A stretch of 64,000 nucleotides of DNA from Pyruvatibacter sp. HU-CL02332 (GTDB taxonomy: Bacteria > Pseudomonadota > Alphaproteobacteria > CGMCC-115125): the NCBI RefSeq assembly GCF_040362765.1, contig NZ_BAABWK010000001.1:1031501-1095500 (forward strand), written 5' to 3'. Position 1 is the first letter of the stretch. Every line of letters starts with the position of its first letter. The notes under the pieces are model-generated. The model worked only from the letters and a program-made list of their open reading frames with translations. It ran no database searches and was not told where the DNA came from. The position numbers and the translations under genes are program-made. Shown here piece by piece: positions 44,129-64,000 of this stretch.

Positions 44129-44736
44129 TTCTTGTGATCGACAATTACGACAGCTTCGTTTTCAACCTCGCCCGCTATGTGCGCGAGCTTGGCGATGCTG
44201 TTGAGGTCATCAGAAACGACGCCATCACCGTCGATGAGGCCCTGGCCATGAAGCCCGCAGGCATCATCATTTCGCCGGGACCCTGCGGACCGGATGAAGC
44301 CGGCATCTCGACACCACTCTCCCGCACAGCCATTACCAACAGCATTCCCCTGCTCGGCGTATGCCTGGGCCACCAGTGCCTTGTGGCGGCCTGCGGCGGC
44401 ACCATCATTCGGGCAGACCGCCCCATACACGGTCAGGCATCCGCGATCACCCATCACGGTAAAGACGTCTTTGCAAGTTTGCCGTCCCCCATGCAGGTGG
44501 GTCGTTATCATTCACTGATTGCCGATACCGCCCTGCTGGAAGACCTGTCGGTAACGGCCCGGCTGGAAGACGACCCATCCACGATCATGGCCGTAGCTCA
44601 CAAGACGGCACCGGCATTCGGCGTGCAGTTTCACCCCGAAAGCGTGCTGACGGATCACGGCCACGCGCTGATGAACAATTTCCTGGGATATACATCCCGG
44701 CGCACCGCTGAGCGGTTTGCGCAAACGGCCGAATAG
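44125..44736 (+). CDS. pabA: Aminodeoxychorismate synthase component II (glutamine amidotransferase)
   Basis: The 203-residue class I amidotransferase supplies ammonia to PabB. It contains DNYDSFVFNLARYV, ISPGPCGPDEAG, the nucleophile cysteine in LGVCLGHQC, and the histidine/glutamate pair in FGVQFHPESVLT. It overlaps pabB by four bases and is followed 9 bases later by the class IV aminotransferase, giving a compact pabB-pabA-pabC operon. The same subunit may serve anthranilate synthase, but the context is folate. Confidence 0.9.
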   Translation: MILVIDNYDSFVFNLARYVRELGDAVEVIRNDAITVDEALAMKPAGIIISPGPCGPDEAGISTPLSRTAITNSIPLLGVCLGHQCLVAACGGTIIRADRPIHGQASAITHHGKDVFASLPSPMQVGRYHSLIADTALLEDLSVTARLEDDPSTIMAVAHKTAPAFGVQFHPESVLTDHGHALMNNFLGYTSRRTAERFAQTAE

Positions 44737-44745
44737 GACGCACCC

Positions 44746-45597
44746 ATGTCGATGCCCCGTATCTGGCTGAACGGAGCCCTCGTCCCGGCAGACGAAGCTG
44801 CCATTGCGCCATCTGATCGCGGCCTGCTTCTGGCTGACGGCCTGTTTGAAACCCTGCTCGCCCGGGAAGGCCGCATCATCCGCCTGGACCGACACATCAC
44901 GCGCCTGCTCGAAGGGGCAGCGGTCATGCAGATCAAGCCACCCTTTGAGAGCCGCACGCTGCGCGCAGCTGCCCGCGAAACCCTCGAGGCAAACGGCCTT
45001 GCCAACAATGATCGCGCAAGCCTGCGCATGACGCTCACCCGCGGCCCCGCTGGGCGAGGGGTAGCGTTGCCGCAAGACCCATCGCCGACCCTGATGATCA
45101 CAGCTGCCGCCGCACCTGCCCCACCCGCAGGTCTGTCAGTCATGGTCAGCAGCGTCAGCAAGCTGGCCACCAGCCCCGCAAGCCCCCTTAAGACACTGAA
45201 CTACACCGACAACGTGATGGCCCGCATGGAAGCGGACGCCGCAGGCGCCGACGAAGCGCTCATGCGATCCGCTGACGGCGGCATCGCCTGCGCCACCATC
45301 GGCAATGTTTTTGTTGTGAAGGAGGGGTCAGTCACAACACCGCCCGACGACGGGTCGATCCGCGCAGGCATCACCCGCAATGACACGCTGGCACTTGCAC
45401 GCGACGCGAACCTGAATGTTGTCGAGGCTGGCATCAGCGTCGAAGCCCTCAAGGCTGCAGACGAGATATTCCTGACCAACAGCCTGTGGGGCATATGCCC
45501 TGTGACCACACTCGAGGGCACCACACTTCCAGCAGGCCCGACCACAAAAAAACTTGCCCAGGCACTCCATGAGGCCTGGGCAAGTGATGTCGTCTAG
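44746..45597 (+). CDS. pabC: Aminodeoxychorismate lyase / class IV aminotransferase
   Basis: The 283-residue fold-type IV PLP enzyme starts with IWLNGALVPADEA and DRGLLLADGLFETL. Its PLP lysine is in SPLKTLNYTDNV, and FLTNSLWGICPV near the C-terminus is typical of PabC and branched-chain/D-amino acid aminotransferases. Next to pabBA, the lyase that releases p-aminobenzoate and pyruvate is the best call. The last 45 bases contain a terminator for the convergent gene. Confidence 0.85.
   Translation: MSMPRIWLNGALVPADEAAIAPSDRGLLLADGLFETLLAREGRIIRLDRHITRLLEGAAVMQIKPPFESRTLRAAARETLEANGLANNDRASLRMTLTRGPAGRGVALPQDPSPTLMITAAAAPAPPAGLSVMVSSVSKLATSPASPLKTLNYTDNVMARMEADAAGADEALMRSADGGIACATIGNVFVVKEGSVTTPPDDGSIRAGITRNDTLALARDANLNVVEAGISVEALKAADEIFLTNSLWGICPVTTLEGTTLPAGPTTKKLAQALHEAWASDVV
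45546..45584 (-). terminator. Intrinsic terminator embedded in the pabC coding end
   Basis: Read leftward, CTTGCCCAGGC and GCCTGGGCAAG form a perfect 11-bp stem (45553-45563 with 45574-45584) with a 10-base loop, followed directly by seven U at 45552-45546. This is a strong terminator for the leftward membrane-protein gene ending at 45613. It lies wholly inside the coding sequence of the convergent pabC. Confidence 0.85.
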
Positions 45598-46585: not shown

Positions 46586-47785
46586 ATGAAGACGCGGGTC
46601 AGTGCAAAGGGGGATTCAGCGCATTTGGCCGCTGATATCGCCACCCCTGCCCCGTCCGGCCCCCGCCTGCTGCTCGCGGCAAATCAGCTGGACTCATTCT
46701 TCAACCACCGTCTGCCCATTGCAAAGGCCGCTCAGAGCCAGGGCTGGGACGTGCATGTGGCCATCAACGAGGCCGATCAGGCCCGGGAAATGGACACAAA
46801 CGGCTTCACCTTCCACCCTTGGCCCCTCGCGAGAAGCTTTGCGTCCCCGGCCCGTGAACTGGAAACCCTGGCGAGCCTTAACCGGCTGGTCAGCGCGCTG
46901 AAGCCAGACATTGTTCATGCCTTCACTCTGAAACCGGCCCTCTATGCAGCTCTCGTCTCCCGCTGGCAGCGGCAGGCCACGGTCATGTCCGTGACAGGCG
47001 TGGGCTCTTTCTTTTTGGGCCAAGGCTCCAAAGAACAGGCCATTCGGATTGCGCTGACAACAGCCCTGCGGCTGGCCCTTGGCAGCAAAAGGCAAATGGC
47101 AATCGTCCAGAACCCGGACGATCAGACCCTCGTCACCACCCGCTTTGGTGTTCCGGTAACGCGCACCCGCCTCATTCCCGGCTCCGGTGTGGACCTTGAG
47201 CAGTTTTCACCCACCCAAACGCCTGCACCGCCACCCGTGCAGATTGTACTGGCCGCTCGCATGCTGGCCGACAAGGGCGTGCGCGAGTTTGTGGACGCCG
47301 CCCGGCAACTCACGGGCGAAGGGCTAAATGCACGATTCGTGCTGGCAGGGGGGCTTGATCCGGCCAACCGGTCCGCCATCTCGGAGACTGAGCTGAAAAG
47401 CTGGCAGGCAGAGGGGTCAGTGTCCTGGCTGGGTCAGGTGCCGGATATGGCCGCGCTCTACCGCGACAGCCACGTTGCCTGTTTGCCATCCTATCGCGAA
47501 GGCCTGCCTAAGGCGTTGCTGGAAGCGGCTGCCTGCGGCCTGCCCTGTGTCACCACCGACGTGCCCGGCTGCCGGGACGCCATCATCGCCGAAGAAACCG
47601 GTCTGCTGGCTCCCGTGCGCGATGCAACGGGGCTGGCGGACGCCCTAAGACGCCTCATCACCGATGCAGCCTTGCGTCAGAAAATGGGTGCCGCTGGTCG
47701 CAGCTTCATATCCAAAGGGCATTCCAACGAGGCCATCGCCGCCGCTGTTCTGGAGACATATGCTCTGCTTGGCGCGCGCGCCTAA
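46586..47785 (+). CDS. Family 4 glycosyltransferase
   Basis: The 399-residue GT-B enzyme has an N-terminal acceptor half ([20 protein letters not shown], later [12 protein letters not shown]) and a donor half. The donor half holds [23 protein letters not shown], and the GT4 signature around [20 protein letters not shown]. The shape resembles undecaprenyl-linked amino-sugar transferases such as PglA/WbpT-type enzymes. It opens the polysaccharide locus. GAGG precedes the ATG at 46586. Its stop overlaps the stop of the convergent aminotransferase gene. Confidence 0.85.
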
Positions 47786-48909
47786 CCGGCAATCGCCGAC
47801 CGCACACCCTCGATGATCCGGTCCTGCGTCGCCTCATCCAGATAGGGATGCATGGGCAGGCTCAGAACGTCCGCTGCCAGCGCATCACATACGGGCAATC
47901 CACCCGGGCCTGTCGGGTAGTGCTTGTAAGCCGTCTGCCTGTGCAGCGGGATCGGGTAATAGACCTGGGTGGGAATGCCCGCGTCCTGGCATCGCGCCCG
48001 CACCGCATCACGGTCCGCAACCCGAAGCGTATACTGCGCCCAGGCAGACTTCGCCGCATTGCCCACAAAGGGGACCGTGGCGACGCCTTCGAGCGCTGCA
48101 TTGTACCTCTCGGCAATCCGTTGCCGTGATACAAGCTCTTCTTCAAAGATCACCAGTTTCTCAATCAGGATCGCCGCCTGGATCGTATCAAGGCGGCCAT
48201 TCATGCCGATGCGCACATTGTCGTAGCGGTCGGCGCCGGCCCCATGGTTGCGCAGCGACCGAATGTGATCCGCCATGTCGGCATCATCCGTAAAGATCGC
48301 GCCGCCATCGCCATAGCAGCCAAGCGGCTTGGCCGGGAAGAAGCTGGTCGTCGCCGCATCCCCCAAAGACCCGACCCGGTTGTCGGCCAGCGCACCGCCA
48401 TAGCTCTGAGCCGCATCCGCCAGCAGGAAAAGGCCTTCTGCGTCACAGATGTCCTTCAGGGCCGGGTAGTCTGCAGGCTGACCAAACAGATCCACCGCAA
48501 TCACGCAGGCAGGCTTCAAGCCCTGTTCCTTGGCCGAGGCGATGGAAGCCTCAAGATGGCGCGGGTCCATATTGAAGGTCCTGGGGTCCACATCCACAAA
48601 CACCGGCGTTGCACCCAGCCAGGCCACAGCTTCACCTGTCGCGATAAAGGTAAAGGCTGGCACAAAGACGGCGTCTCCCGGCCGCAGCCCCCGCGCCATC
48701 AGCACCAGTCCCAGAGCATCCGTGCCGCTGGCACAGCCAATCACATGCTCTGACCCGCTGAATGTGCCCAGCTGCGCCTCAAGTTCGAGGATTTCCGGCC
48801 CGTTGATGTACATCCCATGGTCCAGAACCTTCGCAATCGCGACATCTACCTTGTCGCGGATACGGGCCTGCTGGGCGGCAAGATCAATAAAGGCTATCGG
48901 ATCGCTCAT
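47782..48909 (-). CDS. DegT/DnrJ/EryC1-family sugar aminotransferase, WbpE-like
   Basis: The 375-residue PLP enzyme begins FIDLAAQQARIRDKVD, closely following WbpE of Pseudomonas. WbpE aminates UDP-3-keto-GlcNAcA at C3 on the way to UDP-2,3-diacetamido uronic acids. The PLP lysine is in SFFPAKPLGCYGDGGA, and YPIPLHRQTAY and LSLPMHPYL are family-typical. Partners WbpB (oxidase) and WbpD (acetyltransferase) are not in the window. Its start region is divergent from the dehydrogenase gene, about 200 bases away. Exact substrate is inferred from similarity. Confidence 0.82.
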   Translation of the reverse strand: MSDPIAFIDLAAQQARIRDKVDVAIAKVLDHGMYINGPEILELEAQLGTFSGSEHVIGCASGTDALGLVLMARGLRPGDAVFVPAFTFIATGEAVAWLGATPVFVDVDPRTFNMDPRHLEASIASAKEQGLKPACVIAVDLFGQPADYPALKDICDAEGLFLLADAAQSYGGALADNRVGSLGDAATTSFFPAKPLGCYGDGGAIFTDDADMADHIRSLRNHGAGADRYDNVRIGMNGRLDTIQAAILIEKLVIFEEELVSRQRIAERYNAALEGVATVPFVGNAAKSAWAQYTLRVADRDAVRARCQDAGIPTQVYYPIPLHRQTAYKHYPTGPGGLPVCDALAADVLSLPMHPYLDEATQDRIIEGVRSAIAG

Positions 48910-53756: not shown

Positions 53757-54629
53757 CTACCGGTTCTCTGAAATAAACCTGTCGAGCATGTCGCTCACGC
53801 TCATGGGCGTGTAGCCATACTCGTCCTGTGCCCGCGCACTGTCGATGAGGAACGTCCGCAGCTTTCGGTCGCCGACACTGATCTCAGATGTCGTATCCAG
53901 CCCTTGCGCAAGCCGCGTCACCACATCACGCACAACCATATCGCCCCCGGCACCAACGGCAGTCATATGGGCGCCGGTACGCTCGCCCGACAGCCAGCCA
54001 AAGATCATCTGGGTCAGGTCTTCAATGTGGCAGGCATTGTTGAACCGCACATCGGGGTTCACATAACTCAATGGCAACCCGGCCTTAAGCTTTCGCACAC
54101 ATTCAGAAAGCCAGTTCCGTTTGGAGCCCGGGCCGATAACCGCCGGCAGGCGGATCGACAGGGAAGGAAGTTGATCCTTCACATCTTCCAGGAGCCGCTC
54201 ACCCAGCAGCTTGGTCAACCCATAGGCATCCGGATTGACCGATGGTGTCGCATCGCTGACCACATCATCGGCAACGTCGCCGAAGGCGGAAAAGGATGAG
54301 AAGAAAACGAATGCCTTGGCCTCACAGGCCAGCGCATGCCGGACCAGGGCCTGCGTCGCAGCCACATTGTCGCCGAGCATCTGATCAACGGTGATCCCGT
54401 CCCAGATCGACGTCGCAGCTGCATGCACAACCGCATCTACCGCAGGCAGGTCTTCACCTGCAGCAAGGTCTGCATGCACAACTGAAAAACGGGCTGCCGC
54501 ATCCGCATCATCCGGCGGCGTCACCGGACTGGACCGGGTGAGTGCCACAACCTCCACACCCAGAGCAGCAAGCCGCCGGGCGGCATAGCCGCCGGCAAAC
54601 CCACCTGCTCCGGTGACCAGCACCTTCAT
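53757..54629 (-). CDS. NAD-dependent epimerase/dehydratase or reductase (SDR)
   Basis: The 290-residue extended SDR has GAGGFAGGYAARRLAALG for NAD binding. VDAVVHAAA and FFSSFSAFGD supply the catalytic serine area, and YGLTKLLGE gives the Tyr/Lys pair. The C-terminal part is shortened relative to most sugar epimerases. It is the last gene of a leftward group after the two transketolase subunits. Epimerisation or ketosugar reduction of a nucleotide sugar are both possible. Confidence 0.75.
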   Translation of the reverse strand: MKVLVTGAGGFAGGYAARRLAALGVEVVALTRSSPVTPPDDADAAARFSVVHADLAAGEDLPAVDAVVHAAATSIWDGITVDQMLGDNVAATQALVRHALACEAKAFVFFSSFSAFGDVADDVVSDATPSVNPDAYGLTKLLGERLLEDVKDQLPSLSIRLPAVIGPGSKRNWLSECVRKLKAGLPLSYVNPDVRFNNACHIEDLTQMIFGWLSGERTGAHMTAVGAGGDMVVRDVVTRLAQGLDTTSEISVGDRKLRTFLIDSARAQDEYGYTPMSVSDMLDRFISENR

Positions 54630-54653
54630 GATGCGGCCTTTCGCGAAGGGGCC

Positions 54654-55568
54654 CTAGGCAACCTGCTCAAGAATGAGCGGTACCGAGATGCCGTGCGCGG
54701 CCAGAAGGTCGTCCTGGCTGCCATAGTTGTGAATGAACTCATCCTTGAGCGTGAAGGTGTGCAGCTTGCACTTGGCCTGAACGTCCCAGGCAATCTGCTT
54801 CACACGGGAGGACAGACCCCCCTCCGGCACATGGTCTTCAACCACGATGACCTGATCGTGGCCGTTGAGTGCGGCTTCAATGCCCGGACGGTCCAGCGGC
54901 TTGATCGTGTGTGCGGAAACAACAGACACAGACTTGCCCTTGGCTTCCAGTTCCTTGGCCACTTCCATGGCTTTGGCCATGATCGTGCCATAGGCAAGGA
55001 TGCAGACATCCGTGCCCTTCTGGATGTAGCGGATCTTGCCGAACTCGAACTTGTCCACGGCTGTATCGGTAAAGGTGGGCTCGCCCGCCTTGCCAATACG
55101 CAGATAGACAGGGCCTTCCTTCTGGTAAGCGCAATAGCGTGTCGCTTCCACAAGTTCAGCCGGGTCGCATGGTGCGAGCACACGCATGTTGGGAATGGCA
55201 CTCGCCACCGCAACGTCTTCCATCGTGTGATGCGTGCCGCCAAGCGTTGAATAGATAACGCCTGCGCCCATGCCCACAATCGTCACCGGCAGGTTCTGGT
55301 AGCCCAGATCATCACGCACCATTTCAAACGGGCGATAGAGCGTGAACGTCGCAATGGTGTAGGCAAATGGCTGGCAGCCCTTGAGCGCCAGACCGGCACA
55401 CATGCCGATCATCGTCTGTTCGGCCACGCCTACATTGATGAAGCGGTCTGGATGGTTGGTCTGGAAATCCATCATTGGGCCGGCAGGCGAAATGTCTGCC
55501 ACCACGATGTAGATGTCAGGGTTTTCGCTGGCGCACTCAAAGAGTGTCTGTGAGAACATATTGCGCAT
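54654..55568 (-). CDS. Transketolase C-terminal subunit
   Basis: The 304-residue protein corresponds to the Pyr and C-terminal domains of transketolase: FINVGVAEQTMIGMCAGLAL with the glutamate that activates thiamine diphosphate, TLGGTHHTMEDVAV, and VSVVSAHTIKPLD. Together with the partner subunit it forms a complete two-component transketolase that moves two-carbon units between sugar phosphates. Within a polysaccharide locus it is probably dedicated to making a sugar precursor. It overlaps the N-subunit gene by one base. Confidence 0.85.
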   Translation of the reverse strand: MRNMFSQTLFECASENPDIYIVVADISPAGPMMDFQTNHPDRFINVGVAEQTMIGMCAGLALKGCQPFAYTIATFTLYRPFEMVRDDLGYQNLPVTIVGMGAGVIYSTLGGTHHTMEDVAVASAIPNMRVLAPCDPAELVEATRYCAYQKEGPVYLRIGKAGEPTFTDTAVDKFEFGKIRYIQKGTDVCILAYGTIMAKAMEVAKELEAKGKSVSVVSAHTIKPLDRPGIEAALNGHDQVIVVEDHVPEGGLSSRVKQIAWDVQAKCKLHTFTLKDEFIHNYGSQDDLLAAHGISVPLILEQVA

Positions 55569-56410
55569 TAGTTGGCCTCGTCGATCTCGCGGATCGCCTG
55601 CTTGTATTCTTCAGGATCAGGCGAGCGGTAATGCCACATGGGCACGCTCTCCATGTAGGACACGCCTTTGCCCTTGGTTGTTTTGCAGTTCACCAGCAAC
55701 GGCTTGTCACCTGAGCGGTTCTGCACAGCATTGAAGATCGCTTCGCTGTCATGGCCGTCAACTTCAACAGCTTCCCAGCCAAACGCTTCGTACTTTTCAA
55801 CAACCGGATAGAAGCTTGGATGCGTGTCCGTGGTGAACGTCGCGCTCTGCATGTTGTTGTTGTCGATGAAAGCCACGAGGTTCGACACACCAAGCGACGA
55901 CGCCATCAGCGTTGCCTCCCAGGTGGAACCTTCCTGCACTTCACCGTCAGACATCACCGTGTAGATCGTGCCATTGGTGCCGCGGGTTTTCTCTGCATAC
56001 GCCATTCCCAGCGCCATGCCCATGCCATGGCCCAGCGAGCCGGTTGAGGCTTCGATACCCGGGTTGCCGTAGTCAGGATGCACCCCGAGGATACCGTGCG
56101 GTGTGCAATAGCCCCGCAGATGCTCCTCAGTGAGGATGCCAAGATCAACGAGCAGCATGACCTGAATCATGTAGCCGTGCCCCTTGGACATCAGGAAGGT
56201 GTCCGGAGCCTCATCCCCCACAGGATTGCCGTTGGGGCCTGGCCGCATCAGATTGTAGTAGATGCAATCCACGATCTCGGTAGACGAGAAAGCGCCGCCT
56301 ACATGGAGCGCCGTCACATACTGCGTCATGTCCAGGATGCGTTTGCGGTGACGCTTGCAGCGATCCTTCGCGGCAGCCACATCGAACGCGTTTTGTTCAG
56401 TTGCGGTCAT
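55568..56410 (-). CDS. Transketolase N-terminal subunit
   Basis: The 280-residue protein is the thiamine-diphosphate-binding half: FLMSKGHGYMI, GIEASTGSLGHGMGMALG, and the metal/TPP motif MSDGEVQEGSTWEA with FIDNNNMQ. In the usual GDG start of this motif the first glycine is serine here. It needs the adjacent C-subunit to be active. It overlaps the methyltransferase gene upstream by four bases and the C-subunit gene by one, so the three are tightly coupled. Confidence 0.87.
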   Translation of the reverse strand: MTATEQNAFDVAAAKDRCKRHRKRILDMTQYVTALHVGGAFSSTEIVDCIYYNLMRPGPNGNPVGDEAPDTFLMSKGHGYMIQVMLLVDLGILTEEHLRGYCTPHGILGVHPDYGNPGIEASTGSLGHGMGMALGMAYAEKTRGTNGTIYTVMSDGEVQEGSTWEATLMASSLGVSNLVAFIDNNNMQSATFTTDTHPSFYPVVEKYEAFGWEAVEVDGHDSEAIFNAVQNRSGDKPLLVNCKTTKGKGVSYMESVPMWHYRSPDPEEYKQAIREIDEAN

Positions 56411-57090
56411 TCGGTTTCCGTGTCCTCTCCAAGGATCAGCGTCCAGTAATAGTCGCCCTTGTATCCGGCTTCATCGAAGATGGCTTTCCACTCATCGGGA
56501 TACCCGTAGGTATAAGCGGTGAGAACCCAGTCCTCGAAAATCTCTTTTTCTTCCGGCGTGCGGTAGCTATCCACCTGCACATACGCCTTGTTGTCCCGCG
56601 CCACGCGCTGGATTTCAGACAGGGCGTTGATGAGCTGCGGCCGCTTCAGGTTATGCAGCGTGTTGAGGCAGATCACAGCGTCAAAGCTGTCGTCTGGAAA
56701 CAGCAGCGGGTCATTGAGGTCATGCTGATGCAGACGGCCTACGACTTCCGGTTCGCAATTCATCATCGCGTAACCTGAGATGTCAGAGCCGAAAGCCTGA
56801 ATGCCCGGCTCGGCAATCATGAAATCCTTGACCAGAAACCCCTTGGCACACCCAAGGTCCAGCACCCGGTCGCCCGGCTTCAGGTCCCAGTGCGCAATCA
56901 TGTCCTTGGCAATGGGGACCCAGCGGCCATCATAGCGGTAGCCGCCATAGCCGACTTCACGCGGTCCATCAAAATACTCTTCGCCATATTCACGCGACAG
57001 GGCGATCAGCTCATCCGTCTTTGAGGACGCGCGCTTTTCAATGTTGCGCTTCTTGCGCGGAAAGGCGCTCAGTAGATTGACTTCAGCCAT
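56407..57090 (-). CDS. Class I SAM-dependent methyltransferase
   Basis: The 227-residue enzyme has motif I VLDLGCAKGFLVKDF, acidic motif FGSDISGYAM and FDAVICLNTLHNLKRP. The N-terminal 35 residues are basic and helical. Being coupled to the transketolase genes, it probably methylates the sugar made by this locus, or a glycan end group. Substrate is inferred from context only. Confidence 0.8.
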   Translation of the reverse strand: MAEVNLLSAFPRKKRNIEKRASSKTDELIALSREYGEEYFDGPREVGYGGYRYDGRWVPIAKDMIAHWDLKPGDRVLDLGCAKGFLVKDFMIAEPGIQAFGSDISGYAMMNCEPEVVGRLHQHDLNDPLLFPDDSFDAVICLNTLHNLKRPQLINALSEIQRVARDNKAYVQVDSYRTPEEKEIFEDWVLTAYTYGYPDEWKAIFDEAGYKGDYYWTLILGEDTETE

Positions 57091-57150
57091 GAGGTTTCCG
57101 GTTCCGGTAGTGGGTGTCAGCAGTCAGGTTCGTTCAGCAGGTGCAATATC

Positions 57151-58626
57151 TTATGGCTGCGGGGCATTCAAGTCGGCGTCCTGGGTGAGCCGCACCGCAA
57201 TATGCTTTGCCACCAGTTCATTGCCTGCATTCGACATGTGACCAAAAATGCGGCCTTCGTCATGCATTACGAACAAGCCACGGTAGGCATCCATATCGCG
57301 CAGACCAATATCCTTCTGCGGCTGCCACATATCCAAAGTGTCTATGCCCGCCTCTCGCGCGCAGTCGAGCACGTCAGCGGCGTGCGGCTGACGTTCGACA
57401 ATATCAATGGCTGCACGCCCGCCGAACTGCATGACAAACAGCAAACGCACGTCCGCAGCATCAAGGTCAGTCTGCAGTTTTTCAAGCAGCTTGCAGCTCA
57501 CAGCGACAGGGTCATTGCCCGCCGATACATAGCTGGTCTGCGATCGCGCCCAGTAGCCGCCAAAACCGGTACGCTCTGCAACAAAGGTCACCAGATAGGA
57601 ATAGCCAAGGACGCTTAGTCCCCCCACTTCCTCAGCCTTCCCTGTAAACAGGGGCACGGGATCATAATGGCGAACCAACGCGCCATCCTCGACGGTGAAC
57701 CATGGCTTGTTTGACCCTGCATAGGTCCGATACCCGCTGCGCAGGATGTCATCCTGAAAGAACGACACGACCACAGTGTGCGGCTCAACAACCGGCAACA
57801 GGTCATAGACCCGGCGTACAATCTGATCTGTCGCCCACCCACCGACGCCGCCATTGACCACCGGAACGTCGATCATCTGTTCCAGTCGCGCTGGCCACGT
57901 ATATTTGTTGCCGACTTCAGAGCCGGCAGTAAACGAGTCGCCAGTAGCAAGGATGCCGCCTTTGGGCAGTACCGACTTCATTTCAAAATCGTTCATCCGC
58001 ACGCCGTGAACGCCGGTAGTGACGGAAACGCCCTCCGGGTTGGCGGGATTGCCCGGCATGTTGGGCGCAAGTACCCAGCCCAAATCAGGATGATAGACAT
58101 TCGCCGTCTGAGTCCGCAGCAGGGCCTGACGCTCAGCAGTGATGTTTCTGAGCGGCCAGAAATCGATCCCGTCCATCACCCGCACAACCACTTCGAGGAA
58201 GATGAGCCCAACCAGCACTGACGCGAGTACGACACCAGAATTTCCAAGAAAGACCTTGAAGGTTTTCCAACGGGCCGAGTCGCGGTCCGGCAGTCCGACA
58301 TAGGCCACAACCGCCAGCAATCCGGCAAACAGGATCGCAAAAAGCATCAAAATAACGGTGGCAGTCCGTGACCAGCCAAATGCGAGGTAAAGGTAGAAGG
58401 CCTCTGTCAGCCCTAGCCCCAGCGGCTTTGCCAGAAAGGCCGAAGCCATGAGGAGAAGCGCAATAGCAAAGAGGCCGACTGCCACAAGGGCCAGCGTGGG
58501 CAATTGCCAATCGATTCTCTGCCATTGAGCGGAAATTTGCGATCGCGCTCGTTCAAACGCTTCAGCGATGGCCTTCACCGGCGTCCCCCGACCCCAAATA
58601 GCTGATTTTATTGGCCCGACGGCCAT
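57151..58626 (-). CDS. Membrane-anchored SGNH-hydrolase-like protein
   Basis: The 491-residue protein has three N-terminal membrane helices (within about residues 45-170). A C-terminal domain follows with ILATGDSFTAGSEVG, the GDS block of SGNH/GDSL esterases, and GGVGGWATDQIVRR as the second block. A late H-containing segment near HMSNAGNELVAKHIA is the likely block V. Such proteins can transfer or remove acyl groups on exported glycans. It heads the leftward group and is divergent from the SIS gene with 74 bases between. Confidence 0.75.
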   Translation of the reverse strand: MAVGPIKSAIWGRGTPVKAIAEAFERARSQISAQWQRIDWQLPTLALVAVGLFAIALLLMASAFLAKPLGLGLTEAFYLYLAFGWSRTATVILMLFAILFAGLLAVVAYVGLPDRDSARWKTFKVFLGNSGVVLASVLVGLIFLEVVVRVMDGIDFWPLRNITAERQALLRTQTANVYHPDLGWVLAPNMPGNPANPEGVSVTTGVHGVRMNDFEMKSVLPKGGILATGDSFTAGSEVGNKYTWPARLEQMIDVPVVNGGVGGWATDQIVRRVYDLLPVVEPHTVVVSFFQDDILRSGYRTYAGSNKPWFTVEDGALVRHYDPVPLFTGKAEEVGGLSVLGYSYLVTFVAERTGFGGYWARSQTSYVSAGNDPVAVSCKLLEKLQTDLDAADVRLLFVMQFGGRAAIDIVERQPHAADVLDCAREAGIDTLDMWQPQKDIGLRDMDAYRGLFVMHDEGRIFGHMSNAGNELVAKHIAVRLTQDADLNAPQP

Positions 58627-58700
58627 TGCTGCATTGCATTGCCGCGATGTGCCGGGTACATGAGCGGGTCTTACGAAATGAAGAGCAGAGGCGCAAGCAA

Positions 58701-59285
58701 ATGAGCCACGCAGAGAACTTTTTTAAGCTGGCCGCAGACATCGCCCTAGGCCTCCCCGCAGCTGATGTGGATCGGATGGCCCAGGAGCTTGCAGACCTGC
58801 GTGAACGCGGCGGCCGCCTCTTTATTCTGGGTGTTGGCGGCAGTGCCGGCAATTGCAGTCATGCCGTCAATGACTTCCGCAAGCTCTGCAATGTCGAAGC
58901 CTATGCGCCGGTCGACAATGTGTCCGAGCTTACAGCCCGTGCAAACGACGAAGGCTGGGACACGATCTTCGACGCGTGGATGAAAGTCAGCCGCGCCAAT
59001 GAGAAAGACGCGATTCTTGTATTCTCAGTTGGCGGCGGGAACAAAGAGAAGAACATCAGCCCGAACATCGTCAAAGCTGTCGATCTGGCCAAGGAACTTG
59101 GCATGAAGATCTTCGGTGTGGTGGGCAAGGACACCGGCCACACCGCCAAGCACGGCGACATCGTGGTGGTTGTTCCAAATCCTGATCCTGATCTGGTGAC
59201 CCCGCACTCAGAAGCTTTCCAGGCCGTTGTCTGGCATTGCCTCGTGTCGCACCCAGCTTTGCAGGTAAAATCAACCAAGTGGTAG
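58701..59285 (+). CDS. SIS-domain sugar-phosphate isomerase, GmhA-like
   Basis: The 194-residue protein has a GmhA-like SIS domain with FILGVGGSAGNCSHAVNDFR and FSVGGGNKEKNISPN. VPNPDPDLVTPHSEAFQAVV corresponds to the substrate-binding C-terminal region. GmhA turns sedoheptulose 7-phosphate into heptose 7-phosphate. The motif order supports an aldose-ketose isomerase on a long-chain sugar, but the residues after VGGGN differ from classic GmhA, so the substrate is uncertain. AGAGG precedes the ATG at 58701. It overlaps the phosphatase gene by 7 bases. Confidence 0.82.
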   Translation: MSHAENFFKLAADIALGLPAADVDRMAQELADLRERGGRLFILGVGGSAGNCSHAVNDFRKLCNVEAYAPVDNVSELTARANDEGWDTIFDAWMKVSRANEKDAILVFSVGGGNKEKNISPNIVKAVDLAKELGMKIFGVVGKDTGHTAKHGDIVVVVPNPDPDLVTPHSEAFQAVVWHCLVSHPALQVKSTKW

Positions 59286-59839
59286 CAGGACCGGCCGGTT
59301 CTGACCTCAAGCGGGCCGTTTTCCTTGATCGGGACGGCATTATCAATGAGTCCGTCGTCCGCAACGGCAAGCCCTATCCGCCCGCAACACTTGAGGATGT
59401 TGTCATCCTGCCCGGCGTCAAAGACGCGCTAGAGCGTCTGAAGGCAGCCGGCTATCTTACCATCATCGCCACCAACCAGCCTGATGTGACCACAGGGAAA
59501 CAGTTGCAGTCGGTTGTAGATGCTATTCACGACATGATGCGCGAAACACTGGCACTGGATGATATCCGTGCCTGCTTTTGCGTTGAAGGGCCTGATTGCC
59601 CATGCTACAAGCCAAAACCTGGCCTCCTGACCGAAGCGGCAAAAGACTGGAAAGTCGAATTAAAACAAAGCTTTATGGTCGGAGACAGGTGGCGTGATGT
59701 TGGCGCTGGACAGGCGGCAGGCTGCACCACCTTCTTTGTGGACTATGGCTATCACGAAGACCTCACTTTCACTCCGGACTTTACAGTTTCGGGGCTGAGC
59801 GAGGCGGCAGACATTATTATTTCCGGGCGCGCCGACTGA
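59279..59839 (+). CDS. HAD-IIIA phosphatase, GmhB-like
   Basis: The 186-residue protein has the HAD motif I VFLDRDGIINE, TIIATNQPDV as motif II, and KPKPGLL with GDRWRDVGAGQAAGC for motifs III and IV. GmhB binds zinc through a Cys-x-His...Cys-x-Cys set. Here the loop is CFCVEGPDCPC, with four cysteines and a shorter span. It would dephosphorylate the C7 (or equivalent) position of an aldose bisphosphate. The GTG at 59279 overlaps the SIS gene; the exact start is uncertain. Confidence 0.82.
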   Translation: MVAGPAGSDLKRAVFLDRDGIINESVVRNGKPYPPATLEDVVILPGVKDALERLKAAGYLTIIATNQPDVTTGKQLQSVVDAIHDMMRETLALDDIRACFCVEGPDCPCYKPKPGLLTEAAKDWKVELKQSFMVGDRWRDVGAGQAAGCTTFFVDYGYHEDLTFTPDFTVSGLSEAADIIISGRAD

Positions 59840-59896
59840 TTTTCAGCTATCGCACCGTTGAAACTTGAAATTGTGCTTATTGGGGGGATGTACCAG

Positions 59897-60637
59897 ATGC
59901 GCAAAGTTGAAGACCTGAAGGTCAAGATTTTCGCCGACGGCGCCGATATCGATGCGATGCTCAAGCTCGCAGAAAATCCGCTGGTTAAAGGCTTCACCAC
60001 CAACCCGACGCTGATGCGCAAGGCTGGCGTTGAGGATTATGCGGGCTTTGCCCACAAAGTGATTGCGGCCATCCCGAACCACCCTCTTTCATTTGAAGTC
60101 TTTGCTGACGATGTAGCCGAGATGGAAGCGCAGGCGCTGGAAATTGCTTCCTGGGGCAAGAACGTCAACGTCAAGATCCCCGTGACCAATACCAAGGGTG
60201 AGTCGACGGTTCCTGCCATCCGCGCGATTTCAGCCAAAGGCGTGCAGGCAAATGTGACTGCCGTATTCACTCTGGATCAGGTGCGCGAGATCACAGACGC
60301 GCTGGACGCAGACACACCCGCCATCATTTCAGTCTTCGCTGGTCGCATTGCTGACACGGGCATCGACCCTGTGCCCGTCATGGCCGAAGCTGCCAAGATC
60401 ATGAAGTCAAAGCCAAAGGCTGAACTTCTCTGGGCAAGCCCGCGCGAACTCCTGAACATCTATCACGCTGAAGACAGCGGCAGCCACATCATCACCGTGG
60501 CCCACGATATCCTCGGCAAGCTCGGCCTCATTGGCAAAGACCTGGACCAGTACTCACTGGAAACAGTGGACATGTTCTACAAGGACGCCACTGCGGTCGG
60601 TTACACGATCAACACCAATTCTCAGGCTGCGGAATAA
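59897..60637 (+). CDS. Transaldolase-family enzyme (short form)
   Basis: The 246-residue barrel enzyme has KGFTTNPTLMRKAG at the start of the barrel and the Schiff-base lysine Lys93 in VNVKIPVTNTKG. LLWASPRELLN lies late in the chain. It belongs to the short TalC/fructose-6-phosphate aldolase-like group rather than full-length TalB. It can move or release a three-carbon dihydroxyacetone unit. Its place between the HAD phosphatase and epimerase genes suggests it supplies a ketose phosphate such as sedoheptulose 7-phosphate. GGGGGG sits about 9 bases before ATG 59897. Confidence 0.85.
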   Translation: MRKVEDLKVKIFADGADIDAMLKLAENPLVKGFTTNPTLMRKAGVEDYAGFAHKVIAAIPNHPLSFEVFADDVAEMEAQALEIASWGKNVNVKIPVTNTKGESTVPAIRAISAKGVQANVTAVFTLDQVREITDALDADTPAIISVFAGRIADTGIDPVPVMAEAAKIMKSKPKAELLWASPRELLNIYHAEDSGSHIITVAHDILGKLGLIGKDLDQYSLETVDMFYKDATAVGYTINTNSQAAE

Positions 60638-60649
60638 CAAGCAGCCAAT

Positions 60650-60684
60650 AGCGTGATCTGCCCTGACCAAGGGCGGGTCACGCT
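60650..60684 (+). terminator. Large hairpin after the transaldolase gene
   Basis: AGCGTGA and TCACGCT pair, and inside them GCCCT pairs with AGGGC, giving a long interrupted stem. No T tract follows, so it may attenuate or stabilise rather than fully terminate, separating the isomerase-phosphatase-transaldolase part from the downstream epimerase genes. Confidence 0.55.
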
Positions 60685-60732
60685 GACTTTCATCCTTATT
60701 GCGAACGATTTGGCGAACGAACGGGGACTATT

Positions 60733-61737
60733 GTGTTCAAGAATGTGCTTGTGACCGGCGGTGCCGGCTATGTGGGAAGCCTGCTGGTACCGCAGCTTCT
60801 GGACGAGGGCTACAACGTGACTGTCTTTGACATCATGTTTTTTGGCGATGACTTCCTGCCCAAGGACAACCCCAACCTGAAGATCATCAAGGGCGACATT
60901 CGCGAAACCGCGAAACTGGCCGAAGCCTTCAAGGGCATTGATGCAGTCATCAGCCTCGCCTGCATTTCCAACGACGCAAGCTTCGAGCTGGACGCGAACC
61001 TTTCAACCTCCATCAACATGGATGCGTTTGAACCAATGGTCATCGCGGCGAAGGAAGCAGGCGTTAAGCGCTTCGTCTACGCGTCATCATCTTCCGTATA
61101 CGGCATTTCTGACTCACCCAACGTGACTGAAGACCACCCGCTTGTACCGCTCACGCAGTACAACGAGTACAAAGGTCTGTGTGAACCTCTTCTCTTCAAG
61201 CATCAAAGCGATGACTTTGTATGCGTGACCATCCGTCCGGCCACACTGTGCGGCTACGCACCGCGCCAGCGCCTCGACCTGTCGGTCAACATTCTCACCA
61301 ATCACGCTGTGAACAACGGCAAGATCACAGTGTTCGGCGGCACACAGAAGCGCCCGAACCTGCACGTGGCCGACATGTGCGATCTGTATTCGCACCTGTT
61401 GAAGGAAGACTCCGCCAAGATCGCCGGCGAAGTCTTCAATGCAGGCTTCCAGAACATGTCCATCATGGAAATTGCTGAACTGGCCCAGAAGGTCGTTCAG
61501 GAACTCTTCCCTGAAAAGGGCGAGATCGAAATTGTCACGACACCGACGGACGACAACCGCTCCTACCATGTGAACTCCGACAAGATCCGCAAGCAGCTGG
61601 GCTTTGAGCCCAAGCGCAATGTGGAAATCGCGATCCGCGATCTTTGCCAGGCGTTCAAGGAAAACAAGCTGCCAGACAGCATGACCGACGACTTCTACTT
61701 CAATGTGAAGCGTCTGAAAGCCATGGAAGCCGCATGA
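60733..61737 (+). CDS. NAD-dependent nucleotide-sugar epimerase/dehydratase (SDR)
   Basis: The 334-residue extended SDR has VTGGAGYVGSLLVPQLLDEG for NAD binding. It has YASSSSVYGISD for the catalytic serine region and YNEYKGLCE as the YxxxK pair. It starts at a GTG at 60733. It resembles many extended SDRs acting on CDP-, GDP- or UDP-sugars in surface glycan loci. Its stop overlaps the next gene (ATGA). An HldD-type C6 epimerisation of an NDP-heptose is one possibility. Confidence 0.82.
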   Translation: MFKNVLVTGGAGYVGSLLVPQLLDEGYNVTVFDIMFFGDDFLPKDNPNLKIIKGDIRETAKLAEAFKGIDAVISLACISNDASFELDANLSTSINMDAFEPMVIAAKEAGVKRFVYASSSSVYGISDSPNVTEDHPLVPLTQYNEYKGLCEPLLFKHQSDDFVCVTIRPATLCGYAPRQRLDLSVNILTNHAVNNGKITVFGGTQKRPNLHVADMCDLYSHLLKEDSAKIAGEVFNAGFQNMSIMEIAELAQKVVQELFPEKGEIEIVTTPTDDNRSYHVNSDKIRKQLGFEPKRNVEIAIRDLCQAFKENKLPDSMTDDFYFNVKRLKAMEAA

Positions 61738-62750
61738 GTAAGAAGCCTGTCGCTGTTGTAACCGGTGGAGCGGGCTTCATCGGAAGCCATATGGTTGATC
61801 TGCTCGTTGACGAGGGCTTTGAAGTCCGCGTCATCGACAGCCTGATCGGTGGTCGCGAAGCCAATATCGAGCATCACGCCAAAAACGACGTGACTGCCGA
61901 GTGGCGCGACATCCGCTCGCTGCAGCCCGGCGACAAGCTCTTCTCTGAAGTGGACTATGTGTTCCACTTTGCTGGCATCGGCGACATCGTGCCGTCGATC
62001 GAGCAGCCGCTTGAATATATGTCTGCGAACGTTCAGGGCACGGTCCACGTGCTCGAAGCAGCGCGCGCAGCGGGCACACTGAAGAAGCTTGTGTATGCCT
62101 CTTCGTCCTCCTGCTACGGTATGGCGCAGACGCCGACCCGCGAAGACCACCCCATCGAGCCGAAATACCCCTATGCCCTGTCAAAGTATCAGGGCGAACA
62201 GGCGGTGTTCCACTGGCACGAGGTCTATGGCCTTCCCGCCAACGCGGTTCGTATTTTCAATGCCTATGGCACCCGCTCGCGCACTTCTGGTGCCTATGGC
62301 GCGGTATTCGGCGTGTTCCTGCGTCAGAAGTTGGCCAACACCCCCTATACGGTTGTTGGAGACGGCACCCAGAGCCGCGACTTTGTGTACGCCAGTGACG
62401 TCGCCAATGCGTTCTACCTCGCAGGCATCTCAGACACTGTGGGCCAGGCCTACAATATGGGTGCGGGCGACCCTCAGTCCGTGAACAAGCTCGTTGAGCT
62501 GCTCGGCGGCGAAGTCACCTACATTCCCAAGCGTCCCGGCGAGCCCGACTGCACATTTGCAGACATCACAAAAATCACGAAGGAACTTGGGTGGAAACCC
62601 AAAGTATCTTTTGAAGAAGGCGTTCAGCGCATCGTCCAGAACATCGGCTATTGGGCGGAAGCTCCCCTGTGGGACCCGGACTCAATTGCCAAGGCCACGA
62701 AGACATGGTTCGAGATGCTGTCGCCTGAAGAAGAGTCAAAGAAGAGCTAG
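61734..62750 (+). CDS. NAD-dependent nucleotide-sugar epimerase (SDR)
   Basis: The 338-residue extended SDR has VTGGAGFIGSHMVDLLVDEG, FHFAGIGDIVPSIEQPLEYM, the serine region YASSSSCYGMAQ and YALSKYQGEQ. The C-terminal FNAYGTRSRTSGAYGAVFGV is typical of UDP-glucose/GDP-mannose-type epimerases. It overlaps the preceding epimerase gene by four bases. The two may carry out successive inversions of one sugar, as in bacterial GDP-heptose pathways, but that is inference. Confidence 0.85.
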   Translation: MSKKPVAVVTGGAGFIGSHMVDLLVDEGFEVRVIDSLIGGREANIEHHAKNDVTAEWRDIRSLQPGDKLFSEVDYVFHFAGIGDIVPSIEQPLEYMSANVQGTVHVLEAARAAGTLKKLVYASSSSCYGMAQTPTREDHPIEPKYPYALSKYQGEQAVFHWHEVYGLPANAVRIFNAYGTRSRTSGAYGAVFGVFLRQKLANTPYTVVGDGTQSRDFVYASDVANAFYLAGISDTVGQAYNMGAGDPQSVNKLVELLGGEVTYIPKRPGEPDCTFADITKITKELGWKPKVSFEEGVQRIVQNIGYWAEAPLWDPDSIAKATKTWFEMLSPEEESKKS

Positions 62751-62758
62751 ACCAGACA

Positions 62759-64000
62759 TGGTTGAGAATAAATACAAAGCGAAAATCAAGACGGTCGAAG
62801 AGCTGGTTGATGCCATCGGCACCCGTCCCCGGCAGCAAAAGGTCATCATGTGCCACGGCACATTCGACGTTGTGCACCCTGGGCACATCCGCCATCTGAT
62901 GTATGCAGGCGGCAAGGCTGATGTTCTCGTTGCCAGCCTTACTGCAGACGAACACATCAAGAAGGCCAACTTCCGCCCGTATGTCCCAGAAGAGCTGCGC
63001 GCGCTTAACCTCGCTGCCCTCGACATGGTCGACTACGTCATCATCGACAAGAACGAAGCGCCGCTGGAAAACCTCAGCCGCATCCAGCCGGATTACTTTG
63101 CCAAGGGCTATGAGTACGTCTCAAGCGGCCTGCCGCCCAAGACCCAGGCTGAAAAAGACATTCTCGACAGCTATGGCGGGGAGTTCATCTTCACGCCGGG
63201 CGACATTGTCTACTCTTCTTCCCGCATCATTGAGGCAGCTCCACCAAAGATCGGTGCAGACAAACTGCTGTCTTTGATGGAAGCCGAAGGCATCACCTTT
63301 GACGACCTGCGCAACACGCTCTCAAAAATGAAGGGCGTGAAAGCGCATGTGGTAGGCGACACGATCGTCGATACCTACACCTACACAGCCATGATCGGCG
63401 GCCAGACCAAGACACCGACAATCTCTGTTCGGTATGAAGGCCAGGACGATTATGTCGGCGGCGCCGGCATTGTGGCCAAGCACCTCAACGCCGCAGGCGC
63501 GGACGTGACCTTCTCAACGGTGCTGGGCGACGACAAGTGGCGCAGCTTCGTGATTGATGACCTGCGCACCGCAGGCGTGCACATGCGCGAAGTCATCGAT
63601 GAAACACGCCCGACCACCAACAAGAACGCTATCGTCTGTGCGGATTACCGCATGCTGAAAGTCGATACCCTCGACAATCGCACGATCTCGGAAGCCATCG
63701 TCGAAAAGCTGGTGGACGCCATCAAGACAGTTGAAAGCGACTGCGTTGTTTTCTCCGACTTCCGCCACGGCATTTTCAACAAGGCAACAATCCCCACCCT
63801 TAGTGCCGCCATTCCCGAAGGCATGTTCAAGGTCGCGGACAGCCAGGTCGCGAGTCGCTGGGGTGATATCTGTGAATTCCAGGGCTTTGATCTGATCACG
63901 CCCAATGAGCGCGAAGCGCGCTTCTCTCTTTCGGATCAGGACAGCGTCGTCCGCCCGCTTGCTCAGAAGCTCTACGAAGTATCAAAAGCCAAGAACCTGA
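62759..64000 (+). CDS. Nucleotidyltransferase-PfkB kinase fusion (HldE domains in reverse order), cut by window edge
   Basis: From ATG 62759 the frame stays open to base 64000, at least 414 residues. Residues 1-150 form a cytidylyltransferase-like domain with CHGTFDVVHPGHIRHL (HxGH). Residues from about 195 on form a PfkB sugar kinase, with VVGDTIVDTYTYTA and YVGGAGIVAKHLNAAGADV. Later segments include VVFSDFRHGIFN and FDLITPNEREARF. In HldE the kinase comes first and the nucleotidyltransferase last; here the order is inverted. It would phosphorylate a heptose-7-phosphate-like sugar and later activate it to an NDP-sugar. Confidence 0.85.

Follow-up and report, generated by a model that had tools for sequence, protein, structure and literature searches.

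The stretch considered here is a window of 64,000 nucleotides (the whole stretch of DNA analysed) from Pyruvatibacter sp. HU-CL02332 (contig NZ_BAABWK010000001.1, positions 1,031,501 to 1,095,500; genome of 3.45 Mb in three contigs). From position 53757 onwards, it carries a gene cassette whose best explanation is a nucleotide-sugar pathway serving a surface glycan. There is good support for an unusual activated long-chain sugar as the class of product. In the combined model, to which a probability of roughly 55% is given, an NDP-heptose or NDP-octose would be made, oxidized to a ketone and branched by a two-carbon unit; it draws on the gene content, gene order, conservation, residue changes and enzyme swaps observed, from which we infer all reactions and the product. 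The sugar is quite likely to have at least seven carbons, and the choice between eight and seven is evenly balanced. An initial annotation of positions 53757-64000 had already proposed a dedicated pathway to such a sugar, which is upheld by the conserved co-occurrence of the genes and by the separate HldE-type kinase found in each of 10 genomes, and had made the transketolase a source of heptulose. That interpretation was right in kind and probably wrong on the transketolase, for which a branching of the sugar is more likely than a supply of heptulose.

All the enzymes named in that annotation are present, with family matches far above chance, and they do form two tightly packed divergent operons. 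Its gene list, however, left out the SGNH/GDSL-like gene at 57151-58626, and the last gene runs 305 bp past the window, where the operon continues. The genes are listed below (SDR, short-chain dehydrogenase/reductase; TK, transketolase; TAL, transaldolase; MT, methyltransferase; NTK, nucleotidyltransferase-kinase fusion).

53757..54629, minus strand: SDR1, NAD-dependent epimerase/reductase family (Pfam Epimerase, 2.5e-24; Ser-Tyr-Lys conserved in 18/18 rows), found 3' of the transketolase in a subset of relatives
54654..55568, minus strand: TKc, C-terminal part of a split transketolase with altered active site (Transket_pyr, 3.8e-29; Transketolase_C, 2e-26; residue signature)
55568..56410, minus strand: TKn, N-terminal, thiamine diphosphate-binding part of the split transketolase (Transketolase_N, 2.4e-30; the top-scoring solved chain is the N part of the split transketolase 6yak)
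56407..57090, minus strand: MT1, small S-adenosylmethionine-dependent methyltransferase (Methyltransf_11, 1.2e-11), the closest core-gene neighbour of the transketolase in 32/35 loci
57151..58626, minus strand: SGNH/GDSL-like protein outside the conserved core (Lipase_GDSL_2, 3.2e-7, slightly below cut-off), possibly, as a guess, with a role in glycan O-acylation
58701..59285, plus strand: GmhA-like SIS sugar-phosphate isomerase with altered metal-site residues (SIS_2, 2.4e-8; gmhA model, 8.4e-15, below cut-off)
59309..59839, plus strand: GmhB-like HAD phosphatase (above the cut-off of the histidinol-phosphatase domain TIGR01656 and below those of the GmhB models)
59897..60637, plus strand: TAL, short transaldolase (TIGR02134, 361 bits against a cut-off of 282)
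60733..61737, plus strand: SDR2, NAD-dependent epimerase family (Pfam Epimerase, 3.8e-36; blastp 8e-91 and 43% identity to the SDR of a bradyrhizose-linked cluster)
61734..62750, plus strand: SDR3, dTDP-glucose-4,6-dehydratase-like (TIGR01181, 5.5e-44, below cut-off), adjoining NTK in 57/57 loci with both
62758..64000, ending about 305 bp past the window, plus strand: NTK, a cytidylyltransferase-like domain followed by a PfkB kinase (CTP_transf_like, 1.5e-11; PfkB, 3e-20)

The minus-strand order is SGNH-like, MT1, TKn, TKc and SDR1, and the divergent plus-strand order is GmhA-like, GmhB-like, TAL, SDR2, SDR3 and NTK. The full NTK protein has 515 aa, and its domain order is reversed relative to HldE. 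The next 29.5 kb of the genome were also examined, and the module extends for about 6 kb beyond the window. 3' of NTK come genes for the Gfo/Idh oxidoreductase GFO, the NDP-sugar dehydrogenase NDPDH and a fourth SDR (SDR4), with intergenic gaps of at most 48 bp from NTK through GFO and NDPDH to SDR4. These are followed by a UDP-galactopyranose-mutase-like flavoprotein, a TylF-like methyltransferase and a second methyltransferase. From SDR1 (53757) through SDR4 the gaps range from -8 to 95 bp.

The cassette is a conserved unit that is present in several phyla. NTK was found in 21 of 289 sampled Alphaproteobacteria genomes at E ≤1e-60, this genome and a congener included, and the best match was 58-100% identical in 20 of them and 33% in the remaining one. 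Among at least 590 candidate stretches from species genomes, 551 encode an NTK relative of any degree, and the 80 named loci used, all at least 59% identical, are the best-scoring of these at least 551 NTK-encoding stretches. Together with 20 neighbourhoods from the sampled genomes, and after removal of 3 duplicates, they gave 97 distinct loci picked by their NTK, 34 of which had short flanks and were left out, leaving a full-context set of 63. The 33% relative (L046) is included in the 63-locus counts and absent from the 62-locus sets used for gene order and tree. When the window proteins were mapped onto these neighbourhoods, in which NTK is present by construction, GFO and NDPDH were each found in 61 of the 63 loci, MT1 in 58, SDR2 and SDR3 in 57 each, TAL in 55, SDR4 in 53, the GmhB-like gene in 49 and the GmhA-like gene in 44. 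The co-occurrence search that the initial annotation had suggested thus bore it out: of the ten core genes, 55 of the 63 loci have eight or more and 27 have the full set. Gene order was collinear with the window in 44/62 loci, and 472/494 genes lay on the same strand as NTK. Record titles place the loci in Pseudomonadota, Verrucomicrobiota, Acidobacteriota, Nitrospirota, Chlamydiota, Myxococcota, Planctomycetota and others, many loci being metagenome bins and some titles looking mislabelled. Among L117, L061, L062, L080 and L091 there are ill-fitting titles (Frankia sp. RB7 within a Bradyrhizobium clade, and bins titled Bordetella parapertussis and Akkermansia muciniphila) that are probably mislabelled. 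A plasmid collection yielded 2 distant NTK relatives at E 1e-30.

The transketolase departs from its housekeeping counterparts in the active site. Four residues, Ser385, His461, Asp469 and Arg520 (E. coli numbering), which we take to contact the sugar phosphate and hydroxyls, are all replaced in 60/60 cluster transketolases, with none of the four kept by any of them, where Glu411 and His473 are retained; the 60 TKc rows comprise 39 from the cassette, 12 of the bradyrhizose type and 9 distant ones. When 20 cluster rows, taken from the window, 18 loci and the bradyrhizose-linked cluster, were aligned with TktA of E. coli and with housekeeping transketolases, the same four were replaced in 20/20 rows, and His26, His66, His100, Glu411 and His473 were retained in 20/20. 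All four residues are present in TktA and in the 12 housekeeping rows counted from the same genomes, row L160, in a wrong reading frame, having been left out. The columns of Ser385 and His461 differ between the two alignments, and both residues are replaced in each. The loss is not caused by the gene split, since the split transketolase of the solved structure 6yaj/6yak retains the four residues in the printed alignment. Because contacts to the sugar phosphate and hydroxyls would be lost, we read this signature as a sign that the acceptor, and possibly also the donor, is something other than the usual sugar phosphate. An ordinary transketolase, which should be able to make sedoheptulose 7-phosphate, is encoded elsewhere in 10/10 genomes searched (nine cassette-bearing ones, this one included, and one of the bradyrhizose type).

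The transketolase is also replaced, in many relatives, by other thiamine enzymes. In the full-context set, 33 loci have only the split transketolase, 13 only an E1-type pair (two-subunit, 2-oxoacid-dehydrogenase-like), 5 only a YerE/ALS-type protein (YerE/acetolactate-synthase-like), 5 two types and 7 none of the three. Pfam confirmed the classes on representatives, among them two pairs of the E1 type and two proteins of the YerE/ALS type. In a quick tree of NTK, supported only by the Shimodaira-Hasegawa-like approximate likelihood ratio test (SH-aLRT), the thiamine class changes at least 13 times (62 rows, 51 labelled, the 11 rows with mixed or no class being unlabelled). A core gene is found no more than 1.5 kb from the transketolase in 33/35 loci, and the nearest core gene, which is never TAL, shares its strand in 35/35; MT1, nearest to the transketolase in 32 of these 35, is also nearest to the E1-type pairs in 14/17. 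The relevant section of a 2025 review (PMC12247030) recognizes only three superfamilies of ketone-using thiamine enzymes, namely YerE-like decarboxylases, alphaKADH2 and transketolases, the last proposed and untested, and it is the same three classes that alternate in the cassette. Split transketolases are proposed there, likewise untested, as ketone-branching enzymes of miharamycin and amipurimycin, and the 13 putative ketone-acceptor transketolases counted, none of them assayed in vitro, all come from Streptomycetes (PMC12247030). As far as that description allows a comparison, the cassette resembles the miharamycin and amipurimycin case in having a two-gene transketolase beside NDP-sugar oxidoreductases, and differs from the Streptomycete candidates in that its transketolases come from bacterial glycan loci of other phyla and are accompanied by a long-chain-sugar front end. 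A role of the transketolase as the branching enzyme is rather probable.

The front end of the pathway is represented by TAL, the GmhA-like and GmhB-like proteins and NTK. In TAL, the Lys, Phe, Arg and Ser positions are identical in 79/79 rows; these include the Schiff-base Lys and the Phe at the switch position between transaldolase and fructose-6-phosphate aldolase (TAL/FSA), the latter presumably marking a transaldolase rather than an aldolase of fructose 6-phosphate. Two Arg positions, which we assume to bind phosphate, are retained in 79/79 as well. Non-cassette transaldolases are 31-32% identical to the cassette TAL (4/8 compared). Two TAL genes occur in 7/9 cassette-bearing genomes searched; this genome (G000) and G086 have only the cassette's gene of the TAL/FSA family, which might also serve central metabolism in them. 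The statement of the initial annotation that the locus brings its own transaldolase is therefore literally true here, in the sense that no other TAL/FSA-family gene was found in the genome. As for the TAL acceptor, the sequence leaves the choice between sedoheptulose 7-phosphate and an octulose undecided. The GmhA-like isomerase has His, Asp, Glu and His at its metal-site positions in 61/61 rows, and we take GmhA to have Glu and Gln where the cassette protein has Asp and Glu.

The ADP-heptose pathway (GmhA, HldE, GmhB, HldD) shares with the cassette the step order of isomerization, phosphorylation, dephosphorylation and activation. It differs from it in several respects: the matches to the GmhA, GmhB and HldE models are well below their equivalog cut-offs (138.9 bits against 521 for NTK with the HldE model), the kinase-first order of HldE is absent from NTK, the isomerase site is altered and the cassette has its own TAL. 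Since a separate HldE-type kinase is encoded elsewhere in 10/10 genomes searched, above cut-off in 9, the cassette is not the cell's own ADP-heptose route.

A functional parallel may be found in the lincosamide octose. In the accounts of the lincomycin pathway given in parts of PMC4351081 and PMC12945683, the octose is built by the transaldolase LmbR, the isomerase LmbN, the predicted kinase LmbP, the phosphatase LmbK and the guanylyltransferase LmbO, and the GDP-octose is then processed by LmbM, LmbL, the LmbZ homologue CcbZ and the LmbS homologue CcbS. Likened by the functions named in those accounts, the cassette holds counterparts of the transaldolase, isomerase, kinase, phosphatase, nucleotidyltransferase, epimerase, dehydrogenase and oxidoreductase. 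A dedicated TAL and GmhA-like isomerase are found in 55 and 44 of the 63 loci, and the kinase, phosphatase and nucleotidyltransferase functions correspond by family only. In contrast, the cassette nucleotidyltransferase is cytidylyltransferase-like and fused to the kinase, LmbO being a separate guanylyltransferase, and the cassette adds a thiamine enzyme; no LmbS-type aminotransferase was found among the cassette proteins scanned. The cassette may thus work like the lincosamide octose pathway, and membership of it is not claimed, since the two are likened by function alone, the cassette lacks the function of LmbS and its nucleotidyltransferase belongs to a different kind.

Among the tailoring enzymes, NDPDH aligns with UDP-glucose dehydrogenases and has Asn in 86/86 rows at the position of a Cys that we take to be the catalytic residue of those enzymes; the Cys was seen in the reference row only, and the Lys, Asn and Asp around it are retained. 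NDPDH thus lacks what marks a four-electron NDP-sugar 6-dehydrogenase, and because of the Asn in place of the catalytic Cys, it should stop at the ketone or aldehyde. In a sugar of at least seven carbons, oxidation at C6 would give a ketone, the acceptor that a branching thiamine enzyme needs. In SDR4 (L002:13062-13940), the catalytic Tyr position holds His in 58/72 rows and Tyr in 13, and the Lys of YxxxK is replaced by His in 72/72, so that the enzyme may not be an ordinary epimerase.

Taking these families and the lincosamide logic together, the following route can be proposed. TAL would move a three-carbon unit to a phosphorylated aldose, giving a seven- or eight-carbon ketose phosphate, which the GmhA-like protein would convert into an aldose phosphate. 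The kinase half of NTK would phosphorylate C1, the GmhB-like phosphatase would take off the terminal phosphate and the nucleotidyltransferase half of NTK would produce the NDP-sugar. The Cys-less NDPDH, the Gfo/Idh protein and the SDRs would then oxidize and epimerize it to a ketone, most likely at C6, which would be a secondary alcohol only in sugars of at least seven carbons. The split transketolase would add a two-carbon hydroxyacetyl unit to this ketone, resulting in a branched sugar of about C9 to C10 with a tertiary alcohol, which MT1 would methylate and SDR1 would reduce.

Several observations weigh against this proposal. The 80 named loci are a top-scoring subset of a larger set, so that the counts lean towards close relatives, and the at least 13 class changes are a raw count, made without comparison to shuffled labels. 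The distance to a core gene is at most 1.5 kb for 11/17 E1-type pairs, and the YerE/ALS-type proteins are loosely placed (3/9 within that distance, 5/9 on the same strand), which makes them a weaker part of the swap. The transketolase and the front end are on divergent operons in the window. Since none of the three thiamine-enzyme classes is seen in 7 of the 63 loci, branching may be a step that not every cassette includes. The lincosamide parallel is set by named functions and not by sequence, with the LmbS function absent, and both the meaning of the transketolase signature and the role of the Cys in UDP-glucose dehydrogenase lean on residue functions taken from general knowledge.

These points have to be considered beside the other explanations of the locus. 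A chance clustering of the genes was ruled out by co-occurrence, collinearity and strand agreement in relatives. The capture of ordinary ADP-heptose or housekeeping pentose-phosphate genes by a glycan locus, which the family-level likeness to GmhA, GmhB and HldE might suggest, is largely contradicted by the sub-cut-off scores, the reversed fusion and the separate HldE-type kinase and transketolase of the genome, and can be regarded as highly improbable. Less extreme, and still improbable, is the supply of heptulose by the locus itself, in which transketolase and TAL would make sedoheptulose 7-phosphate (or an octulose) from pool sugars, leading to a plain NDP-heptose via GmhA, kinase, GmhB and nucleotidyltransferase. 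This would explain why both enzymes occur in the locus and would fit the cassette TAL being the sole TAL/FSA gene found in 2/9 cassette-bearing genomes, this one included. The heptulose source that the initial annotation saw in the transketolase is nevertheless disfavoured by the loss of the four residues in 60/60 rows, by the ordinary transketolase elsewhere in 10/10 genomes, by the exchange with enzymes of the E1 type, for which heptulose formation is not known, and by the transketolase being nearest to MT1 in 32/35 loci and never to TAL.

An explanation of similarly low probability places both enzymes before activation, with the transketolase adding C2 and TAL adding C3 units to a sugar phosphate to give a long unbranched ketose that GmhA would isomerize. 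Both enzymes do lengthen sugars, and the two Arg positions presumed to bind phosphate are retained in 79/79 TAL rows. The phosphate-contact residues are, however, lost in the transketolase, its E1-type substitutes use 2-oxoacids, and it is missing from 28 of the 63 loci. Somewhat more credible, though still unlikely, would be two separate sugars, an NDP-heptose or octose made by the plus-strand operon and a different keto-sugar, for instance a hexose, branched by the transketolase, MT1 and SDR1. The divergent operons of the window and the 7 loci lacking any of the three thiamine classes fit this possibility. Against it stand the position of the transketolase near MT1 and on the same strand in most relatives that have it, and a bradyrhizose-linked cluster in which NTK, GmhA-like, SDR2, transketolase and MT1 genes are united. 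The branching of one long-chain NDP-sugar remains the preferred model.

This cluster offers an experimental link to a known sugar. Busset et al. (2016, PMC4743980) reported that the bradyrhizose O-antigen is lost on mutation of gdh, which lies in an 11-gene cluster that six photosynthetic Bradyrhizobium strains have in common; in the account given there, polar effects of the gdh mutants were not excluded, and the biosynthesis of bradyrhizose, described as a ten-carbon bicyclic sugar in PMC9912281, was called unknown in 2016. A search of 265 Bradyrhizobium genomes with the gdh primer of that study, allowing up to 3 mismatches, matched 13 genomes, one of them perfectly. In the latter, both gdh primers are exact and span 381 bp, and the rfaL primer lies about 45 kb away; since these distances fit the 300 to 400 bp amplicon and the approximately 44 kb given in PMC4743980, this genome is ORS285 or very near it. 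The cluster there has the order NTK, RmlA-like, SDR2, GmhA-like, gdh, TKn, TKc, Zn-alcohol dehydrogenase, putative phosphatase (HAD, labelled by eye, no Pfam match), APH-like kinase and MT1. From their count and position, we infer that these eleven genes are the published eleven-gene cluster. The order NTK, SDR2, GmhA-like, TKn, TKc, MT1 is the same in 12/12 Bradyrhizobium loci (12 of the 13 primer matches, G422 being left out), and reaction-centre genes occur in 10/12 of these genomes, with 2/12 lacking them, against 27/265 across the genus.

Comparison of the 13 window cassette proteins with this cluster matched 6 of its 11 genes, all six at E <1e-13 (NTK 30% identical, SDR2 43%, GmhA-like 31%, split transketolase 36 and 40%, MT1 42%), with the same reversed NTK fusion and the same transketolase signature. 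None matched the RmlA-like nucleotidyltransferase (NTP), alcohol dehydrogenase, HAD or APH proteins at E 1e-3, and the partial gdh showed general SDR similarity only (24%). Conversely, the stretches examined of the bradyrhizose cluster have no match to TAL, GmhB, Gfo/Idh, NDPDH or SDR4, and it has extras of its own in the RmlA-like nucleotidyltransferase, Zn-alcohol dehydrogenase, APH-like kinase and gdh. By sequence, the cassette and the bradyrhizose-linked cluster are thus relatives and not the same. A more far-reaching interpretation, tentative and at present doubtful, would make the cassette a widespread route to a class of branched C10 sugars, possibly carbocyclic, to which bradyrhizose belongs, with a TAL-derived octose, C6 oxidation by the Cys-less dehydrogenase and C2 extension by ketone-accepting split transketolases across phyla.

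The reversed fusion extends to a wider family. The bradyrhizose-type NTK used as query matched 49/398 genomes of the phylum at E 1e-30, some by the kinase half only. Of 20 reversed fusions at greater distance, whose best NTK matches show 27 to 60% identity, 11 have a transketolase or E1-type gene nearby and the remaining 9, several of them on short stretches, do not. Because L184, L186 and L195 are without any cassette neighbour, the reversed fusion alone does not prove the pathway. A third arrangement was observed in eight loci (L189, L191, L194, L196, L197, L185, L192, L199), in which the fusion is found with HAD, APH-like kinase, split transketolase and SDR3, with MT1 in 7/8, SDR2 in 6/8 and mostly a putative dioxygenase too; the first five of these loci belong to one genus of Alphaproteobacteria.

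The cassette is widely shared and yet apparently unstudied: literature searches, covering titles and abstract openings among the matches listed, found no published description of it. The matches listed in searches of solved structures were, judged by their molecule names, general family members only. If the proposal is true, it would represent a common bacterial sugar pathway without an earlier description in those searches and a candidate family of ketone-accepting transketolases outside Streptomycetes. It would also provide a genetic relative making bradyrhizose biosynthesis testable gene by gene, and enzymes possibly useful as C-C bond-forming catalysts.

A surface-glycan locus is indicated as the setting because glycosyltransferases and a TviB-like UDP-sugar dehydrogenase adjoin the cassette just upstream, with an epimerase-like open reading frame between, recognized by eye. 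A DegT aminotransferase (47782-48909) lies outside the cassette, and at 42776-45597 a chorismate-binding enzyme, a glutamine amidotransferase and a class IV aminotransferase stand in a row, a folate- or anthranilate-type set beside the glycan locus. Past the window (L003:1-17052), several large proteins resemble SGNH/AlgX-type glycan O-acyltransferases by eye, and among them are an asparagine-synthase gene and, also by eye, an FkbM-like gene. About 27 kb past the window end (L003:17217-18038), a protein without Pfam match at 1e-5 looks phytanoyl-CoA-dioxygenase-like by eye; its relatives sit in the cassette loci L052, L103 and L111 and also in L185, and it may be part of the pathway.

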